Origin: a virus
Virus record (IMG/VR): IMGVR_UViG_3300048839_000131
Span: 1 to 34,094 of that record
Reading direction: 5' to 3' (one strand)
DNA length: 34,094 nt
Under the pieces are notes generated by a model. It searched no databases and had not been told where the DNA came from. It saw only the letters and a list, made by a program, of their open reading frames with translations. The position numbers and the translations under genes are program-made. Shown here piece by piece: positions 6,679 through 28,797 of this stretch; position 1 is the stretch's first letter, and each line of letters opens with the position of its first letter.

Positions 6679-6897
6679 ATGAACTGGCTTGCAGAAATAC
6701 ACAGCGAACACGGCAAACTTTCATCAAAGCGATTTTATGGAGGTATTCTGATTATTTCGGTAATTTTGCTTGCGTATATGGAAAAGTCGGCAGCAATATT
6801 AGAGCCTATGCTTTACACCGGTGCGGGGCTTGTCGGGTTTAACACGGTCGTAAACATTGCGAAAGCGATAAAAGGAGGTGCGAATGAAAGTAAGTGA
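6679..6897 (+). CDS. Holin candidate
   Basis: This 72-residue protein has two predicted membrane helices (about 20-34 and 40-62), separated by a short MEKSAA turn, and a charged C-terminus. Size, topology and position directly before the endolysin gene fit a small phage holin that permeabilises the inner membrane to time lysis. It begins immediately after the previous stop, and its 3' end overlaps the endolysin start by 14 bases. The call rests on topology and context. Confidence 0.65.
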   Translation: MNWLAEIHSEHGKLSSKRFYGGILIISVILLAYMEKSAAILEPMLYTGAGLVGFNTVVNIAKAIKGGANESK

Positions 6898-7306
6898 ACA
6901 TTTTGATTTGCGGGAGTTAGTTGATCCTTCAACCTTTGAAAACGAGGGCGCAAACGCTGTTAAATTGATTGATAAGCGTATTCCGGCACTACTCGAAAAG
7001 ATCCGGCAGCTTTGCGGCAACAGATCGATGACGATTAATAACTGGCATACAGGCGGCAGATTTCAATACAGGGGCTACAGGCCGCAATATGTCAAAGTCG
7101 GTGCGGCAAAGTCAATGCACAAACAAGGCAAAGCGGTTGACTTCGATGTCAAAGGAATGACAGCCGATGAAGTGCGGGGGATATTGCGCCTCAACCAAAT
7201 CGAATTAATGAAATTAGGACTTACCCGGATTGAAACGGGCGTGTCATGGGTTCACATTGATCTGAAAGAAACCGGATTGAATTACCTTTACGAATTTAAG
7301 CCATGA
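6884..7306 (+). CDS. Endolysin, peptidase M15 family
   Basis: The protein has 140 residues and the layout of the M15 D-Ala-D-Ala carboxypeptidase / L-Ala-D-Glu peptidase fold. The zinc site is visible: His79 and Asp86 in SMHKQGKAVDFD and His124 in WVHIDL, with Glu117 a candidate catalytic residue. It should cut the peptide stems of murein at lysis. The ATG at 6884 is chosen over a GTG at 6878 because a strong Shine-Dalgarno, AAAGGAGG at about 6871-6878, lies 5-6 bases upstream. That is unusual in this genome and its host phylum. It overlaps the spanin gene by ATGA. Confidence 0.88.
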   Translation: MKVSEHFDLRELVDPSTFENEGANAVKLIDKRIPALLEKIRQLCGNRSMTINNWHTGGRFQYRGYRPQYVKVGAAKSMHKQGKAVDFDVKGMTADEVRGILRLNQIELMKLGLTRIETGVSWVHIDLKETGLNYLYEFKP

Positions 7307-7812
7307 GAAAACTAATCCTATTAATCGTAATCGCAGTGACATTTACCGGCTGCATAACTCAAAAGCGGTGTAATTCAAAGTTTCCGCCCGAAGTAATGAT
7401 TATTCGCACGGATAGTATTATTCACACAAAAGAAACTATTTACAGCGACACTACAATTTATATCGAAATACCTGGCGAAGTTCAATATTCAAACGATACT
7501 TTATACATTGTCGGCGATCAAATTTACTTTAAACCGTCTTACCTGAAAACATCGCTTGCAGAAAGTCGGGCATACATCGAAAACAACCGTTTACAGCACA
7601 CTTTGACACAAAACGATACATTACTACCCGTGACGATTAAAAACGCTGTCAGGCTCACGTGGGAACGTGCTGAACGGTATTTTAATCAGAGTGAAACTAA
7701 AGTCGAAAAGGTTAAGTTTATCCCATTGATTTATAAAATATTTGCCGGCATCGGCTTGTTGTCATTGATTTACTTTGCTGTAAACCTATATATTAAGATA
7801 AAAGGCGTGTAA
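7303..7812 (+). CDS. Unimolecular spanin candidate (lipoprotein with C-terminal membrane helix)
   Basis: The protein has 169 residues. The N-terminus is a lipoprotein signal with lipobox FTGC (Cys17). A long periplasmic part rich in Thr, Ile and Tyr follows, then one membrane helix at about 144-164 and a short basic tail (KIKGV). An outer-membrane lipid anchor plus an inner-membrane helix in one chain is the topology of u-spanins such as T1 gp11, which fuse the two membranes in the last step of lysis. It directly follows the endolysin and precedes a terminator. Sequence similarity to known spanins was not tested. Confidence 0.72.
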   Translation: MRKLILLIVIAVTFTGCITQKRCNSKFPPEVMIIRTDSIIHTKETIYSDTTIYIEIPGEVQYSNDTLYIVGDQIYFKPSYLKTSLAESRAYIENNRLQHTLTQNDTLLPVTIKNAVRLTWERAERYFNQSETKVEKVKFIPLIYKIFAGIGLLSLIYFAVNLYIKIKGV

Positions 7813-7840: not shown

Positions 7841-7870
7841 AGCGGGGGTGTGGTTACCTCCGCTTTTTTT
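7841..7870 (+). terminator. Intrinsic terminator of the late tail/lysis operon
   Basis: AGCGGGGGT (7841-7849) pairs with ACCTCCGCT (7856-7864) with one G-U pair, followed by a run of T. It lies 29 bases after the spanin stop and ends the long structural and lysis transcript. Confidence 0.88.
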
Positions 7871-7880
7871 ATCAAAACTA

Positions 7881-7910
7881 TTGACTTTTGTGTTTTTATG
7901 TTTATCTTTG
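7881..7910 (+). promoter_or_regulatory. Promoter of the structured RNA
   Basis: TTGACT at 7881-7886 and TATCTTTG at 7903-7910, 16 bp apart, fit the Bacteroidota consensus. The predicted transcription start is near 7915. No open reading frame follows before the terminator at 8032-8066, so the product is an RNA. The 25-bp early operator is absent upstream. Confidence 0.78.
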
Positions 7911-7915
7911 TAGTG

Positions 7916-8066
7916 TTAAAACAGAAAATCGGTAGGACGGTTTGCGAGTTTTAGAAAGATATTTAATTTGTTACCTCCGCTTGTATCTTTGTCCTACCGT
8001 AGAAATACGAAAGGTGCAGGCAAAATTTCAGAAACCCTGTTATCTTTTAAGATTTCAGGGTTTTTT
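7916..8066 (+). ncRNA. Structured non-coding RNA of about 150 nt, unknown family
   Basis: A promoter at 7881-7910 and a terminator at 8032-8066 frame this stretch. CGGTAGGAC (7930-7938) pairs with GTCCTACCG (7991-7999), and AAAGATA (7955-7961) pairs with TATCTTT (7984-7990). On the 3' strand the two helices are contiguous (16 bp); on the 5' strand a 16-nt bulge separates them. The 22-nt apical loop holds UUACCUCCGCUU. A hairpin CGTA-GAAA-TACG with a GNRA loop follows (7998-8009), overlapping the outer stem by two bases. The loop's ACCUCC equals the core of the 16S anti-Shine-Dalgarno. I do not recognise the family; function could be translational control or decoy activity. Confidence 0.68.
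8032..8066 (+). terminator. Intrinsic terminator of the structured RNA
   Basis: AAACCCTG (8032-8039) pairs with CAGGGTTT (8056-8063), with a further inner helix ATCT/AGAT beyond a symmetrical TT/TT internal loop, and a run of six T at 8061-8066. Confidence 0.88.
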
Positions 8067-8358
8067 CTGTTTTGACTGGGTTGTAGTCCAGTCATACCCC
8101 ACAGGATAAATAAGCACAAAGCCTGAAATATGACAGCACAGCGTTCATTGCATATCGCTAAACTACCGCTCTGACGGCAACTGTCAACGGTGACTGCACT
8201 GATTAAATAAAGCGATATACCCGCAGCAGGTCGGGAAACTTGATGATAGGTTGTGAGTTTTGTGAATGCTTTTTAGGGTAAAATATATTGATTTCCCTAA
8301 ATTTCACAATAAGAGTCTGCATAAAGTGCAGGTATAAAGTTGCCATGTCAGTACCTTT
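8067..8358. other. Non-coding segment of about 290 bp, function not established
   Basis: No credible gene is present on either strand. Visible inverted repeats are GACTGG (8074-8079) with CCAGTC (8088-8093), ATATCGCT (8152-8159) with AGCGATAT (8211-8218), and CCCG (8220-8223) with CGGG (8232-8235). The segment lies between the end of the late region and the first early promoter, where replication origins or packaging sites often sit. I saw no tRNA cloverleaf and no clear DnaA box cluster. It may hold an origin or a second structured RNA. Confidence 0.4.
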
Positions 8359-8383
8359 CTTATTTAGAATGAATATAAATTAG
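8359..8383. promoter_or_regulatory. 25-bp operator, copy A
   Basis: The sequence starts CTTATTTAGAATGA and ends TATAAATTAG, an imperfect palindrome of the same 25-bp length as copies at 11952, 12026, 12988 and 16557. Its centre (8371) is 33 bp before the TTGACA of the first early promoter. Confidence 0.75.
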
Positions 8384-8403
8384 CAAATACTGAAAAATAA
8401 CTC

Positions 8404-8433
8404 TTGACATTTACAAAAATATACGTATATTTG
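8404..8433 (+). promoter_or_regulatory. Early promoter 1 with overlapping palindrome
   Basis: TTGACA (8404-8409) and TATATTTG (8426-8433) are 16 bp apart. A perfect 16-bp palindrome, AAATATACGTATATTT, occupies 8417-8432 and covers the -7 box. It is repeated exactly at early promoter 2, so a dimeric repressor site is likely. Operator copy A lies upstream. The promoter drives the 8457-11960 gene block. Confidence 0.85.
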
Positions 8434-8456: not shown

Positions 8457-8729
8457 ATGGCAAACGAAATGATCACAGTAGATCAGTACACTCAATACGG
8501 AGTGGAAGTAATACTGAAAAAAGCAAACCCGCAGTATCCGAAATACAGAAACGGGAACACGCTTACGGTAAAGTTTAACCGATTCAAACACGGGATTGCA
8601 AAGATTCAGTTGTTGGCGGTTGTTGGCGGAACTTACCACCAATCATTCAATGATTCAGAAATCTTTGATTATGTTGAATTTCCAAAAGAAGCGGAGTTGA
8701 ATTTTATTAAAGCATATCTCGAACTTTAA
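8457..8729 (+). CDS. First early protein, unknown function
   Basis: This 90-residue protein is the first gene after early promoter 1, with an A-rich leader of about 18 bases and no Shine-Dalgarno. I do not recognise it. It is a mixed alpha/beta soluble protein with a basic middle (KKANPQYPKYRNGNTLTVKFNRFKHG). The operator-controlled position suggests a host take-over or regulatory role expressed immediately after infection; this is inference from position only. Confidence 0.75.
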   Translation: MANEMITVDQYTQYGVEVILKKANPQYPKYRNGNTLTVKFNRFKHGIAKIQLLAVVGGTYHQSFNDSEIFDYVEFPKEAELNFIKAYLEL

Positions 8730-8741
8730 AAACCCAAACCC

Positions 8742-8957
8742 ATGTCAATCAAACCAAAACTTTTAAGCGGATCGCAGTTCAAGGAATTGCGGGTATCGAA
8801 AAAAATCACAATGTACAAGTTGGTGCAATTAACCGGACTGAACAGGCGTACTATCGAACAATTCGAGCGTGAAGAGACCAGTCCGTTAATCAGCACGTAT
8901 GCAACGTTGATGAATGCAGTCGAAAACTATAAAGCTGACGATCATGCAAACGGATAA
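8742..8957 (+). CDS. XRE-family helix-turn-helix regulator
   Basis: This 71-residue protein is almost entirely one XRE/Cro-type helix-turn-helix domain: residues of about 8-60 contain FKELRVSKKITMYKLVQLTG followed by LNRRTIEQFEREETSP. Such proteins bind palindromic operators as dimers. It is the only clear DNA-binding regulator in the early block controlled by operator copy A and the AAATATACGTATATTT palindrome, so it is the best phage-encoded candidate to bind one of them. It overlaps the next small gene by 14 bases. Confidence 0.82.
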   Translation: MSIKPKLLSGSQFKELRVSKKITMYKLVQLTGLNRRTIEQFEREETSPLISTYATLMNAVENYKADDHANG

Positions 8958-11792: not shown

Positions 11793-11960
11793 ATGTACCA
11801 AAAACTATTCGATCACCTAAACAAAGAGTTTGACATTCTTGCGACTGATGAGGACATGGAAATGATCTGCAACATCGTCAAAGAAATTGAGCAGACAAAA
11901 CTCGATCAGGCACGAAAAGAGCGGAAACACAATTTGACTGAACCGGATTTTCTTATTTAG
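11793..11960 (+). CDS. Small acidic helical protein ending in operator B1
   Basis: The protein has 55 residues from the ATG at 11793, 12 bases after the previous stop; an upstream in-frame ATG at 11751 lies inside that gene. It is helical and charged, with no recognised domain. The TAG stop is embedded in the left arm of operator copy B1 (11952-11961), so the last codons are constrained by the operator. It is the last gene of the first early block. Confidence 0.6.
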   Translation: MYQKLFDHLNKEFDILATDEDMEMICNIVKEIEQTKLDQARKERKHNLTEPDFLI

Positions 11961-11976
11961 ATTCATTCTAAATAAG
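11952..11976. promoter_or_regulatory. 25-bp operator, copy B1 (perfect palindrome)
   Basis: CTTATTTAGA (11952-11961), TTCAT, TCTAAATAAG (11967-11976): ten-base arms match perfectly around a 5-bp spacer. This is the best copy and defines the consensus. It is centred 117 bp before the -33 box of early promoter 2. Confidence 0.85.
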
Positions 11977-12025
11977 CACGTAACCACCTAATCCGCACGT
12001 AATTAGCTTATCAGATTGCGTGCGG

Positions 12026-12050
12026 CTTATTTAGAATTAGTATAAATAAG
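12026..12050. promoter_or_regulatory. 25-bp operator, copy B2
   Basis: CTTATTTAGAATTAG followed by TATAAATAAG; arms CTTATTTA and TAAATAAG are perfect over eight bases. Its centre (12038) lies 43 bp before the TTGACT of early promoter 2. Together with B1 this promoter has two sites. Confidence 0.82.
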
Positions 12051-12080
12051 CGGTTTGTTGAAAAATAAATCTAAAAACAC

Positions 12081-12112
12081 TTGACTTGTGTACTAAAATA
12101 TACGTATATTTG
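12081..12112 (+). promoter_or_regulatory. Early promoter 2 with overlapping palindrome
   Basis: TTGACT (12081-12086) and TATATTTG (12105-12112) are 18 bp apart. The 16-bp palindrome AAATATACGTATATTT (12096-12111) is identical to that at early promoter 1 and covers the -7 box. A leader of about 30 bases precedes the ATG at 12150. Confidence 0.85.
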
Positions 12113-16556: not shown

Positions 16557-16581
16557 ACTATTTAGACCCATTCTAAATAAC
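16557..16581. promoter_or_regulatory. 25-bp operator, copy D
   Basis: TATTTAGA (16559-16566), CCCAT, TCTAAATA (16572-16579): perfect eight-base arms with the same 5-bp spacer as B1. The centre (16569) is 21 bp before the TTGACT of the replication promoter, two helical turns. Confidence 0.82.
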
Positions 16582-16589
16582 GCAAAAAC

Positions 16590-16619
16590 TTGACTTTAAC
16601 TGAATTTTGATTATCTTTG
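16590..16619 (+). promoter_or_regulatory. Replication promoter (early promoter 4)
   Basis: TTGACT (16590-16595) and TATCTTTG (16612-16619) are 16 bp apart. Transcription should start near 16625, giving a leader of about 138 nt before the replication organiser gene. Confidence 0.85.
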
Positions 16620-16635
16620 TAGTTCATAATGCCGA

Positions 16636-16742
16636 TTGAACCCCGGCTCTAATCCGACAGACACCATGAAAAACGTATTTACACTTCCAACAATATTAGC
16701 ACCCGTTCTGTCTGTCGGCAGGGTTCAAACGGGTGCTTTTTT
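16636..16742 (+). promoter_or_regulatory. Attenuator-like leader with two competing hairpins
   Basis: Terminator hairpin: AGCACCCGTT (16698-16707) pairs perfectly with AACGGGTGCT (16728-16737) and six T follow (16737-16742). Alternative hairpin: TTGAACCC (16636-16643) with GGGTTCAA (16721-16728) and CCGACAGACA (16654-16663) with TGTCTGTCGG (16709-16718). The 3' arms of the alternative occupy exactly the terminator loop, and the terminator's 5' arm lies in the alternative's loop, so the two exclude each other or form a pseudoknot. This is the form of a transcription attenuator or of a small RNA made when termination wins. Confidence 0.78.
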
Positions 16743-16758
16743 GTTGGGTAAATTTTGA
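16666..16758 (+). CDS. Possible leader peptide across the attenuator
   Basis: A 30-codon reading frame starts at the ATG in the leader and runs through both arms of the terminator, stopping four bases before the organiser's ATG. The peptide is hydrophobic with a basic end (MKNVFTLPTILAPVLSVG at the start, FLLGKF at the end). Translating ribosomes would melt the terminator, so the frame could couple translation to read-through. It lacks a clear run of one codon and may not be expressed. Confidence 0.4.
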   Translation: MKNVFTLPTILAPVLSVGRVQTGAFLLGKF

Positions 16759-16762
16759 GACC

Positions 16763-17869
16763 ATGGCACTAAGAAACCAACCCTACTTTCCTTTGTATGT
16801 ACAAGACTATCTAACGGATGAAAAACTAAATTTATGCAGTTTATCCGCACAGGGGTTGTATATAAAAATATTGTGTATTTTACACAAGCAAGAAACGTAT
16901 GGGAGTATTTTGTTTCAGCAAAACAACAAACAAAACTTAAACAAAAAAGATTATTTTGTTTCTTATCTGTCCAAGCAGTTACCAGTGCAAAAAAATGAAA
17001 TCGAAGAATTGTTAACTGAGCTACTTGATGAAGGAGTGCTGATAATGGATGATGATATACTATATCAAAAGCGAATGTTAAAAGACGGGAAAATTAGTGT
17101 AGTTAGGTCAAATGTTGCGAAAGATGGAGGCGGTAGTAATTTAAACAAACAGTACGGTAAAAAAGGAGTTTTATACTTATTATCTGATAAAGAAAAGTTT
17201 CATAAAATAGGCGTTACCAGTAACTTAACTCAAAGAGTATATCAAATAAGAAGCAAACATAAAATGTCTAAATTATTTGATGTTGTTTCATTTATTGATG
17301 TTCAAGACATGGGGAAAGTTGAGGATCAAATAAAGGTTTATTTTGGCGACAACATCAGAGGTGAATGGATAAATTTACCTTATAATGAAGTTGTTGATAA
17401 ATTTAATTTGTTTCAGCAAAATCCTAAACAAACGCCTAAACAAAACCCTGAAAATGAAAATGAAAATGAAGTTGAAAATGTAAATAAAATTGAAAATGAT
17501 AGAAACAGTATTTTGCTGGAAAATTTGAAAATTCAATTTGAAAAATTTAGAATAGCTTATCCTGGCAAAAAAAGGGGAATTGATACTGAATTTGAAAACT
17601 TCGCCAAAAAGCATAAAGATTATAAACAGGTAATTCCTGAACTCGAAAGAATATTAAAGGCTCAATACTTTGCTAAAAACAAAAATATTGAGAATGGACA
17701 CTGGGAGGAAAATTGGCAAAACCTACAAACTTACATTAATCAGCGTTCATGGGAAATTGAGATTGACATTAAACCAACAAAAACACAAACGACAAATGGA
17801 AAACAAAGCGTTACAGATAAACTCGCAGCGGCAAACAACATCATTGATGGAATGTTTCTTAAACAATGA
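16763..17869 (+). CDS. Replication organiser with an inserted GIY-YIG / T5orf172-like domain
   Basis: The protein has 368 residues from the ATG at 16763. Residues 1-125 look like the N-terminal domain of phage replisome organisers (LSAQGLYIKILCILHKQETYG; DEGVLIMDDDILYQKRM). Residues of about 134-214 are a separate domain: GVLYLL, KIGVTSNLTQRVYQIRS, VEDQIKVYF, GEWINL, the pattern of T5orf172/MUG113 members of the GIY-YIG superfamily. A low-complexity linker (PENENENE) leads to a C-terminal helical domain (about 255-360). It should bind the origin and load replication proteins; the inserted domain may bind or nick DNA. Confidence 0.78.
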   Translation: MALRNQPYFPLYVQDYLTDEKLNLCSLSAQGLYIKILCILHKQETYGSILFQQNNKQNLNKKDYFVSYLSKQLPVQKNEIEELLTELLDEGVLIMDDDILYQKRMLKDGKISVVRSNVAKDGGGSNLNKQYGKKGVLYLLSDKEKFHKIGVTSNLTQRVYQIRSKHKMSKLFDVVSFIDVQDMGKVEDQIKVYFGDNIRGEWINLPYNEVVDKFNLFQQNPKQTPKQNPENENENEVENVNKIENDRNSILLENLKIQFEKFRIAYPGKKRGIDTEFENFAKKHKDYKQVIPELERILKAQYFAKNKNIENGHWEENWQNLQTYINQRSWEIEIDIKPTKTQTTNGKQSVTDKLAAANNIIDGMFLKQ

Positions 17870-20118: not shown

Positions 20119-20764
20119 GTGTTATGTGCAGCCCTTTTCGGAAGTTTTCAATGAGGACTGCATACAAGTTATGAAACGCTATCCTGACAAATTCTTTGAC
20201 CTTGCTGTGGTTGACCCGCCTTATGGAAACAATTTAAGCGGTGGTAGGTCTGCAAAGAATGGTTGGAATAATAAAATTGATTGGGATAAATGTAATAAGG
20301 GATGGAATTTAGCAATACCAACACCTGAATACTTTGCAGAACTTCAGCGAGTATCTAAAAATCAAATTGTGTGGGGTGGAAATTACTTTGCAAATATGCT
20401 TCCAAATTCAGAATGTTGGTTAATTTGGGACAAAGGACAAAGGGATTTTAGCCTTGCAGATGGCGAGATGGCTTGGACTTCATTTGATAAAGCTATGAGA
20501 ATACATACACTACATAGGGCAGTAGCTAATCAAGAGGATAAAATGCACCCAACGCAAAAGCCAGTAAAACTATATGACTGGATATTCTCAAAATTTGCAA
20601 GCGAGGGTAATTTGATTTTAGATACTCACTTGGGGAGCGGGTCAAGTCGAATTGCAGCACATAAGGCGGGGTTGTCATTTGTCGGGTGCGAAATTGATAA
20701 AGACTATTTTGATGCACAGGAAAAAAGGTTCAAAGAATTTGTTTCACAGTTGCGGCTCTTTTAG
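20054..20764 (+). CDS. Orphan DNA adenine methyltransferase 2 (beta class), cassette 1
   Basis: The protein has 236 residues. DPPYG at 54-58 precedes the AdoMet motif LDTHLGSGS at 189-197, and HPTQKP is at 165-170, so it is a beta-class adenine (or N4-cytosine) methyltransferase paralogous to the one at 15515. The first 28 residues (up to CYVQPF) have no counterpart in that paralogue; they are encoded by the linker right arm. No other ATG precedes the catalytic domain, so the repeat-derived extension is probably translated. No restriction partner is present. Confidence 0.88.
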   Translation: MTNDNKKQELSDSTDTAIAHSTCYVQPFSEVFNEDCIQVMKRYPDKFFDLAVVDPPYGNNLSGGRSAKNGWNNKIDWDKCNKGWNLAIPTPEYFAELQRVSKNQIVWGGNYFANMLPNSECWLIWDKGQRDFSLADGEMAWTSFDKAMRIHTLHRAVANQEDKMHPTQKPVKLYDWIFSKFASEGNLILDTHLGSGSSRIAAHKAGLSFVGCEIDKDYFDAQEKRFKEFVSQLRLF

Positions 20765-20782
20765 GGTTGTATATAACGTTTT

Positions 20783-20895
20783 GCAGATAGGCGATGTGGC
20801 GGATTTTGAAACACAAAACTATCTGTAAGCACTAAACTTGATTTGAAAACGAAAACTTTAAATTAACCGAGAAACCCGCCATATTGCCTATGTGC
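20783..20895. repeat. Cassette linker 2
   Basis: The left arm GCAGATAGGCGATGTGGCGG (20783-20802) matches the reverse complement of CCGCCATATTGCCTATGTGC (20876-20895) at 17 of 20 bases. ATAACG precedes it. The body begins GTTATAGGTAGGGC (20897-20910) and ends GCCTTACCTATAAC (21158-21171), a 14-bp inverted repeat with one mismatch. Here no ATG lies between the arms; the gene starts inside the body. Confidence 0.85.
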
Positions 20896-20930
20896 TGTTA
20901 TAGGTAGGGCTTCTCACAAAACTTGATAAG

Positions 20931-26864: not shown

Positions 26865-27611
26865 ATGGAAAATCAAACCTATAAATCAGTTTCTAACACG
26901 GTCAAAGATGTTGACATGAAGAACAGGACCGTGCTTTTCCATGCTTCTGTTTTCGGAAACATTGACTCTGATGCCGACATAATTCAGCCAGGGGCATATC
27001 TGAAAACGATACAGGAAAACGGGCCAGCTGCAAAGAACCGTGTTTGGCATTTGTTCAACCACTGGTTAGACTGGCCTCTATCAAAACCGAAACTATTGAA
27101 AGAGGATTTGGTAGGATTGTATTGTGAAACCACGATGCCGGACACCGACAAGGCAAATGACATTATGAAGCTATACGAAGCCGGTTATTTAACTGAGCAT
27201 TCGGTATGGATTCAGATTATTAAAGCCGTAAATCAGACCGCAGAGGGCAGAGAAATACGGCTTATTCAGGAGGTTAAGTTAATGGAGGTTAGTTCAGTTC
27301 TTTGGGGGGCAAATGAAGCCGCTCAAACTATCGGCATTAAATCACTTGCTGAACTTAACCGCAGAATTGAGAATGGCGATGCCCTGTTAAGAAATGGCAC
27401 GCTAACTGATGAGATGTTTAAGAGGTTGGAAACTGACCTCACAGATATAAAAACAAAATTGGCACTCCTGACAGAGCCGCCTCAAACGATTCAAAAGCCG
27501 GAAGATACTAACTCAACCACTTTGGAAGCGATTAACAGATTTAACAATCTAAAAATCCTAAACCAAAATGGAAGAGAATCTCAAAAAAGAACTGGACTCG
27601 ATAGCCAATAA
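26865..27611 (+). CDS. Prohead protease, HK97 (S78) family
   Basis: The protein has 248 residues. The catalytic His66 in WHLFNHWLDW and Ser113 in TEHSVW fit the S78 serine protease of HK97-type phages, with an acidic third residue further on. It should cut the scaffold-like N-terminal domain from the capsid protein and then be lost from the prohead. The C-terminal 80 residues are low-complexity and helical. It overlaps the capsid gene by 44 bases. Confidence 0.88.
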   Translation: MENQTYKSVSNTVKDVDMKNRTVLFHASVFGNIDSDADIIQPGAYLKTIQENGPAAKNRVWHLFNHWLDWPLSKPKLLKEDLVGLYCETTMPDTDKANDIMKLYEAGYLTEHSVWIQIIKAVNQTAEGREIRLIQEVKLMEVSSVLWGANEAAQTIGIKSLAELNRRIENGDALLRNGTLTDEMFKRLETDLTDIKTKLALLTEPPQTIQKPEDTNSTTLEAINRFNNLKILNQNGRESQKRTGLDSQ

Positions 27612-28797
27612 AATCGATGCCACTGTCCAGAAAATGGACACCGAAAACAAGGAAGAACTGAAAACGCTTAAGGGCGAATTTCAGGCACTTACAAAGCAGT
27701 ACAATGATCTGTCTGCTAAACTCAATGAAGACCTGCAAACCGTTCAGAAATCAGTTGACAAACTCTCGATTGAAGAACAGCGTTTAAAAGGCGCTCAACT
27801 GAAAGACCTCCGCACTGCCTTAACTGAGCAGTTGAATAGCGAGGCGTTTAAATCCTACCTGACCGCAAAGAAAGGCGGAGACAAGCGTGCGAAACATAGC
27901 ATTTCGATGGAAAACGTAGAAGCCCGCAAGGCAACCGTTACACCATCAACCGCTACTGCCGACACTTCCGCACCTGATTACCTGAACACCGGTATAATTT
28001 ACGACCCATCGCGTGACACTTTTGTACGTAATTTTATCCCATCGGGAACAACCACTGCAAACACGGTTGTAGTACCTGTTGAGTTGACAATTACAGATGG
28101 CACAGCCGTTACAGCCGAGGCAACCCAAAAGGGTGTATCACAATTCACACTTGATAACAAGGCGTTTCCTGTGATGAAGATCGCAGCTATTCTGAAAATA
28201 TCAGAGGAGATGTTAGATGACGTACCTGGGCTTGTTACCTACATCGTTAACCGTTGGGGCGCTAAACTAAAAGTCAAAGAGGATAATGTACTTCTTTACT
28301 CAACCGCTTCAAGTACTGCATTTGACGGTCTTACCGTTGCTGCACAGGCATATGATGACAGTCTTGCCGATGCCGCTGTAAATAAGTGGGATGTGCTGAT
28401 GAACGCAATCACTCAAATTAGGGTTGATGAATACAGGGCAACCGCAGTAATGATGCACCCAACCGACGTGCTCGAACTGAAAACAGCAAAGGGATCAGAT
28501 AAACATTACATAGGTCGCAGCCCTTGGGATCGTTTGCCGATGTTTGTTGATGGGGTTCAGATAATCGAGACAACTGCCATTGGTGCAGGTGAGTTCTTGG
28601 TCGGAGACTTCCAACGTGGTGCTCAGTTGTTTGACCGTAAAACAGCATCTATCAACTTTTACGATCAAGACGAGGACAACGCTCAAAAGAACCTTATTAC
28701 CGTTGTAATTGAAGAGCGTTTGGCTCTTGCTATTTATCGCCCGAACGCCTTTGTTTACGGTGATTTTGCTTCGGCACTTGCTGAGGGTTCAGCATAG
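27568..28797 (+). CDS. Major capsid protein, HK97 fold
   Basis: The protein has 409 residues. Residues 1-100 form a charged coiled coil, the delta domain that acts as scaffold and is removed by the protease encoded upstream. The mature capsid part starts at about 110-130. Patterns such as FVRNFIPSGTTTANTVVVPV, FPVMKIAAILKISEEMLDD and AVMMHPTDVLEL, ending LALAIYRPNAFVYGDF, match HK97-like capsids. A strong terminator follows 25 bases later. Confidence 0.94.
   Translation: MEENLKKELDSIANKIDATVQKMDTENKEELKTLKGEFQALTKQYNDLSAKLNEDLQTVQKSVDKLSIEEQRLKGAQLKDLRTALTEQLNSEAFKSYLTAKKGGDKRAKHSISMENVEARKATVTPSTATADTSAPDYLNTGIIYDPSRDTFVRNFIPSGTTTANTVVVPVELTITDGTAVTAEATQKGVSQFTLDNKAFPVMKIAAILKISEEMLDDVPGLVTYIVNRWGAKLKVKEDNVLLYSTASSTAFDGLTVAAQAYDDSLADAAVNKWDVLMNAITQIRVDEYRATAVMMHPTDVLELKTAKGSDKHYIGRSPWDRLPMFVDGVQIIETTAIGAGEFLVGDFQRGAQLFDRKTASINFYDQDEDNAQKNLITVVIEERLALAIYRPNAFVYGDFASALAEGSA

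Follow-up and report, generated by a model that had tools for sequence, protein, structure and literature searches.

Positions 7881-8066 of the virus record IMGVR_UViG_3300048839_000131 very probably hold a genuine small-RNA gene, judging by sequence. The reading that we favor, to which we give about an even chance, is a stand-alone gene that is read by the host polymerase and encodes an RNA acting in trans. This gene has its own intrinsic terminator and codes for no protein, and its putative host-read promoter is a consensus match of a form scarce by chance. Support for a stand-alone gene comes from a terminator far more stable than shuffled sequences, an end stem that begins at the predicted start, and a lack of genes over the following ~390 nt. 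The RNA is an orphan – new as a sequence, ordinary in kind (a phage small RNA).

The window – the whole stretch of DNA analyzed, 34,094 nt – is a 34-kb record of an uncultured virus. Its proteins match a RecT annealing protein, a YqaJ-type exonuclease, a large terminase, a portal, a head protease, a major head protein, a tape measure and an endolysin; none of the window proteins scanned matched an integrase. The closest terminase relatives in a phage collection belong to phages of Parabacteroides, Alistipes and Bacteroides (~46% identity), and the source looks like an uncultured phage with Bacteroidota-type bacteria as hosts.

The + strand carries the main genes of the window. Around the locus, the order is the 7303-7812 gene, the terminator at 7841-7871, the promoter at 7881, the RNA, a gap, an operator with the promoter at 8404, and the early genes, which begin at 8457; the gene nearest to the RNA terminator on its downstream side is thus ~390 nt away. 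The RNA had been placed between the late and early regions by the first-pass annotation, in agreement with the lysis terminator upstream of it and the early genes downstream. We found no relatives of the neighboring proteins (7303-7812 and 8457-8729) in viral contigs. In L169, a related phage contig, two terminator-like hairpins in a row lie ~240-470 nt past the endolysin match (read by eye); they precede an early promoter and leave room for a short RNA at the same position. The features of the locus are as follows, 'drawn' denoting the helix of the first-pass annotation.

6878-7306: endolysin gene
7303-7812: gene for a 169-aa protein of unknown function, overlapping the end of the endolysin gene
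7841-7871, + strand: intrinsic terminator that closes the late (lysis) operon; a 13-mer in its 3' arm (7853-7865) recurs in the RNA
7881-7910, + strand: Bacteroidota-type promoter of the RNA, TTGAC...TATCTTTG, with no early operator
7915-8070, + strand: proposed small RNA, from a predicted start to a probable end
7915-7928, + strand: 5' arm of the end stem, partner 8063-8076
7930-7938, + strand: 5' arm of stem A (drawn helix), partner 7991-7999; competes with fold B
7935-7978, + strand: first hairpin of fold B
7955-7961, + strand: 5' arm of the drawn upper stem, partner 7984-7990; not favored
7970-7982, + strand: 13-mer GTTACCTCCGCTT, identical to that in the 3' arm of the late terminator
7979-7990, + strand: 5' arm of the 12-bp stem of fold B, partner 8010-8021
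7991-7999, + strand: 3' arm of stem A, partner 7930-7938
7998-8009, + strand: hairpin with a GAAA tetraloop in the lowest-energy fold
8010-8021, + strand: 3' arm of the 12-bp stem of fold B, partner 7979-7990
8030-8066, + strand: intrinsic terminator of the RNA
8063-8076, + strand: 3' arm of the end stem, made up of the U tract and the bases after it, partner 7915-7928
8358-8433, + strand: early-region operator (from ~8358) and promoter (8404-8433), given for contrast and outside the RNA gene

The promoter of the RNA matches the Bacteroidota type perfectly, as had been claimed. Bacteroides promoters are described as having a -7 consensus, TAnnTTTG, plus a -33 TTTG motif (PMC7366714), and flavobacterial promoters as having TAnnTTTG at -12 to -5 (PMC9723704). 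When both strands were scanned for the strict form TTGAC-N16..18-TAnnTTTG, eight promoters were identified on the + strand (3804, 7881, 8404, 13043, 16590, 22394, 26356, 26829), against a chance expectation of 0.03 (mean of 30 simulated sequences), and none on the opposite strand of the window. A ninth promoter, at 12081, has a spacer longer than that of the strict form. An antisense gene at the locus was dropped from consideration, that strand having no strict promoter.

The operator motif TTATTTAGA and its inverse precede all four early promoters (8404, 12081, 13043, 16590), with copies at 8362 (from ~8358), 11955-12029, 12991 and 16560-16572, in palindrome-like repeat regions that reach to 12040 and 16580 in the second and fourth cases. 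This motif is absent upstream of the promoter at 7881 – which upholds the earlier remark that the RNA gene has no early operator – and upstream of the late promoters. The first early operon encodes a small helix-turn-helix protein (8742-8957), assigned by weak Pfam matches that fall short of the curated cut-offs, which could bind the early operator. Because the promoter at 7881 fits the main sigma-factor consensus (PMC7366714, PMC9723704) and the early operator is absent, transcription of the RNA gene by unmodified host polymerase, which had also been proposed, is well supported at the level of sequence.

We predict that the RNA starts at G7915, on the basis of a -7 box at -12 to -5. The terminator at 8030-8066 deserves the label 'strong' that it had been given (z -5.85, with none of 200 shuffles equally stable). 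The 3' end probably falls within the U tract, at ~8064-8073, and the promoter and terminator together define a predicted RNA of ~155 nt. No ATG-started ORF of at least 20 aa lies over the RNA on the + strand; the single frame there is a TTG-started one of 55 aa (7942-8109), which we judge to be non-coding because it crosses the terminator. The claim that the stretch lacks a reading frame holds for ATG starts. A tRNA or tmRNA was also considered and dropped, as ARAGORN found no such genes in the window.

We scanned for comparable cassettes, defined as a promoter with a terminator at most 330 nt away and little overlap with frames of at least 70 aa, in 219 sequences (the window plus 218 loci, with L001, a copy of the window, excluded). 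Five places were identified: 7881 and 16590 in the window, two in L210 and one in L154. One L210 cassette surrounds a tRNA gene (read by eye), as the method should pick out; since the set is mixed and mostly non-Bacteroidota, the scan serves to check the method and yields no rate. The second cassette of the window (16560-16763) comprises an operator, the promoter at 16590 and a stem (16654-16662/16710-16718) that shares bases with the terminator arms (16698-16706/16729-16737) and thus excludes them. The terminator is spanned by a 30-aa frame (16667-16759) that stops immediately upstream of the T5orf172-domain gene starting at 16763, and the cassette looks like an attenuator.

The ends of the predicted RNA are complementary. 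Its first 14 nt pair with 8063-8076, so that the predicted start, G7915, is the first base of a 14-pair end stem whose 3' arm reaches past the limit of 8066 set by the first-pass annotation. Fourteen end pairs were reached in 0.48% of 5000 simulations, the compared stretches having been picked after the pairing was seen. A transcript ending at 8070 or 8073 would retain six or nine of these pairs, and the end stem thus needs no read-through far past the U tract. With its end likewise picked after the pairing was seen, 7915-8076 folds at -54.9 kcal/mol (z -6.66, with 0/200 shuffles as stable).

The excess of folding over chance is uneven across pieces of the RNA, with z values of -4.73 for 7881-8066, -4.28 for 7917-8066 and -3.80 for a 70-nt piece (7930-7999). 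The core without the terminator (7917-8028) is just modestly more stable than shuffled sequences (z -2.24; 4/200 shuffles as stable). In a scan of 1358 150-nt windows, other places scored lower, the best being 27501-27650 and 11951-12100. The first of these, which has one of the strongest fold signals on both strands, lies within a coding region; 20751-20900, another of the strongest, is intergenic.

The structure first drawn, a long helix carrying a bulge of 16 nt and an apical loop of 22 nt, is not supported by refolding. Both pairs of arms do exist (7930-7938/7991-7999 and 7955-7961/7984-7990), but for the transcript 7917-8066 the drawn structure reaches -34.9 kcal/mol versus -43.7 for the best fold, which lies 8.8 kcal/mol below it and is incompatible with its 9-bp stem. 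If that stem is kept but given a different upper stem, the transcript reaches -40.0 kcal/mol. Within the ensemble of 7915-8073, fold B has a probability of ~0.91, the 9-bp stem of fold A 0.08 and the drawn upper stem ~1e-5. The GNRA hairpin described alongside the helix fared better: a GAAA-loop hairpin is present at 7998-8009 in the lowest-energy fold. The window has five further sites with perfect 9-bp arms containing 5 or more GC, so the 9-bp stem is unexceptional when taken by itself.

In growing transcripts, fold A is best at ~8001-8016, fold B from 8021, fold A again at 8051-8056 and fold B at the end. The two folds are mutually exclusive, and all full-length folds retain the terminator hairpin; random RNA may often show such competition between folds. 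On this modeling, the drawn structure should not be relied on, and folds A and B with the end stem should be taken as the candidates.

From the promoter, the terminator, the lack of an ATG frame and the fold stability, we infer a course of transcription, timing, stability and action in trans. Unmodified host RNA polymerase would start at G7915, from a promoter free of whatever binds the early operator; as no such binder would hold it back, the RNA would be made early, and probably throughout infection. Transcription would stop at the 8030-8066 terminator, and pairing of the 5' end with the 3' tail would be expected to protect the RNA against decay. Computed folding suggests that fold A would form during synthesis and be replaced by fold B once 8010-8021 emerges. 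The RNA would then act in trans, either base-paired to at least one transcript or bound to a host protein. Of the roles first suggested, host take-over, translation control and packaging, the analysis gave none any support and contradicted none. Candidate targets among gene starts or along the window were dropped, as none stood out: the best pairing among 60 gene starts was equalled by 18 of 40 shuffled RNAs, and the best + strand pairing along the whole window (31.6) was weaker than one on the untranscribed strand (38.2).

Within the scope of our searches – Rfam, phage and plasmid records, contig patterns and Bacteroidota genomes – no relative was found, and the RNA can still be called undescribed. 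DNA comparison with 50,697 phage records gave three short matches, none covering the RNA, and comparison with 72,556 plasmid records gave one, again not covering it. An exact pattern of both stems had no match in viral contigs, nor did one exact pattern in genome contigs; these contig searches used exact patterns, and the collections searched may by design omit records very near the window, so this absence is weaker than it appears. A DNA search of 17 viral records gave short matches in three (E 0.006 to 0.1), and the five matches in 395 Bacteroidota genomes were confined to the promoter or terminator parts. A RecT search returned mostly unrelated-looking loci, used in BLAST and promoter scans only.

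We also built a covariance model, R1, with the window RNA as its sole source, entered as two identical rows with the drawn stems, which makes it mainly a sequence model. R1 recovers the window RNA at 135.6 bits. At E 0.01 it matched 0/395, 1/393 and 0/300 Bacteroidota genomes in overlapping samples, and the one match was rejected because it lies within a same-strand reading frame. At E 0.6 it matched one of 26 records; its best E was 4.8 on 25 loci and 1.1 on seven phage records. A known Rfam RNA was dropped as an explanation, as the whole window had no match to Rfam release 15 at the gathering score and permissive searches gave sub-threshold matches only. Since no homologue was found, covariation speaks neither for nor against the RNA.

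A pattern of the 8-bp stem alone occurred in 84 stretches of viral contigs. Of these, 80 were examined for promoters; among those with a promoter or GC <0.42, three related viral contigs (L158, 1906-2036; L103; L086) have a Bacteroidota promoter, a long hairpin that shares the 8-bp stem of the window RNA (z -3.53 in L158) and a T tract. They were rejected as homologues because the stem was demanded by the pattern and R1 had no match there; the element is possibly another phage small RNA. The best R1 match in the 80 stretches (E 0.049) was to a long perfect inverted repeat in L124, another locus. A candidate duplicate of the RNA (8246-8336; 12.8 bits, E 0.36, z -0.94) was likewise rejected. In the same intergenic gap, 8240-8345 can form a stem with a one-sided 5' bulge and then a hairpin, like the drawn structure; this resemblance is not significant.

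The 13-mer GTTACCTCCGCTT has exactly two copies in the window, one within the RNA (7970-7982) and the other in the late terminator, on its 3' arm (7853-7865), and none of 1500 simulations gave a 13-mer common to both stretches. Pairing of the RNA with the 5' arm of the late terminator is computed at -17.3 kcal/mol, a strength similar to that of the terminator hairpin itself (-16.7). Co-folding gains 5.7 kcal/mol when just this 5' arm has been made, and the completed hairpin remains intact in the co-fold. We consider it very unlikely that the RNA is a trans-acting antiterminator whose 13-mer captures the emerging 5' arm so that late transcription continues; a small duplication could just as well have left the repeat behind. 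If the RNA were such an antiterminator, late read-through would be tied to the amount of operator-free RNA, and the two folds would govern exposure of the 13-mer.

Other readings of the locus differ in where the RNA would act, or in whether it acts at all. Polymerase from 7915 might pass 8066 into the early region, the RNA serving in cis as a leader, attenuator or put-like antiterminator that is triggered by one of its folds or by a polymerase that it has modified. HK022 put RNAs, which are described as lying downstream of early promoters and acting in cis (PMC9378689), provide a precedent, and the same phage has a leader-like cassette (16590-16763) just before a gene, in which stem and terminator are exclusive as folds A and B are here. 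We nevertheless regard this as unlikely: folds A and B mainly spare the terminator stem, whose hairpin persists in every full-length fold, and the next gene, ~390 nt on, has its own operator and promoter. It is similarly unlikely that there is no functional RNA and that the promoter and terminator insulate early from late transcription, with an interior that is drifting or a relic. The lack of detected conservation fits such a reading, as do the core z of -2.24, with the terminator supplying much of the fold signal, and L168 (endolysin 45% identical), where a lysis terminator is followed by early genes with no such RNA (read by eye). An insulator, however, needs no promoter of its own, and chance is an improbable source of the end pairing and of the 70-nt piece, albeit both were chosen post hoc.

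A closed end stem, as predicted here, and a long helical form are general features of 6S RNAs. Bacteroides is described as having a 6S RNA (PMC7366714), yet no Rfam 6S family matched even at E up to 10, and the predicted fold B is branched, with no helix around a central bubble; a 6S-like RNA that binds host polymerase for host take-over is highly improbable. We give equally little credence to an RNA anti-CRISPR (Racr) or another decoy against host defenses. Racrs, which are small and non-coding phage RNAs, often sit directly downstream of a promoter (PMC10651486), as this RNA does. DNA comparison with 395 sampled Bacteroidota genomes, a weak proxy for the host's own repeats, nevertheless gave no repeat-like similarity, and the match to a CRISPR repeat family was just 18 nt, sub-threshold and on the other strand. 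Type III toxin-antitoxin RNAs have tandem RNA repeats, then a terminator, with the toxin gene right behind; this class was set aside, as the locus has no tandem repeats and no gene for ~390 nt.

Small RNAs of Bacteroidota phages appear to be little studied. The main text of a review of phage small RNAs (PMC12197685) contains no word starting with 'Bacteroid', and none of the matches listed in literature searches dealt with small RNAs in Bacteroides phages. If our favored reading is correct, an operator-free, stand-alone RNA gene at the late/early junction would mean that RNA regulation is used in Bacteroidota phages too. The promoter and operator set offers a simple route to such genes in unannotated phages.

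Several known systems resemble the window RNA in part. 6S-flavo (RF01685; PMC2864571) is similar in size and has paired ends, whereas the window RNA has no covariance-model match to it and a branched predicted fold. Racrs likewise are small non-coding phage RNAs behind a promoter (PMC10651486), but no repeat-like segment was recognized here by comparison with the sampled Bacteroidota genomes. AsxR-type sponges share complementarity to one terminator arm; AsxR binds a terminator stem-loop (PMC12197685), whereas here the computed complementarity involves the late terminator of the phage itself. HK022 put is also a structured nascent phage RNA soon after a promoter, with bulged stems, but it is ~70 nt long with two stem-loops and genes behind it (PMC9378689), in contrast to ~155 nt, a strong end terminator and no gene directly behind. 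The sar (P22), OOP (lambda) and c4 (P1/P7) RNAs are small non-coding phage RNA genes with their own regulation signals and known antisense targets (PMC12197685). Although the window RNA comes from a phage of another host phylum and has no sequence relation to them (no Rfam match), it is, like them, likely to be stand-alone.
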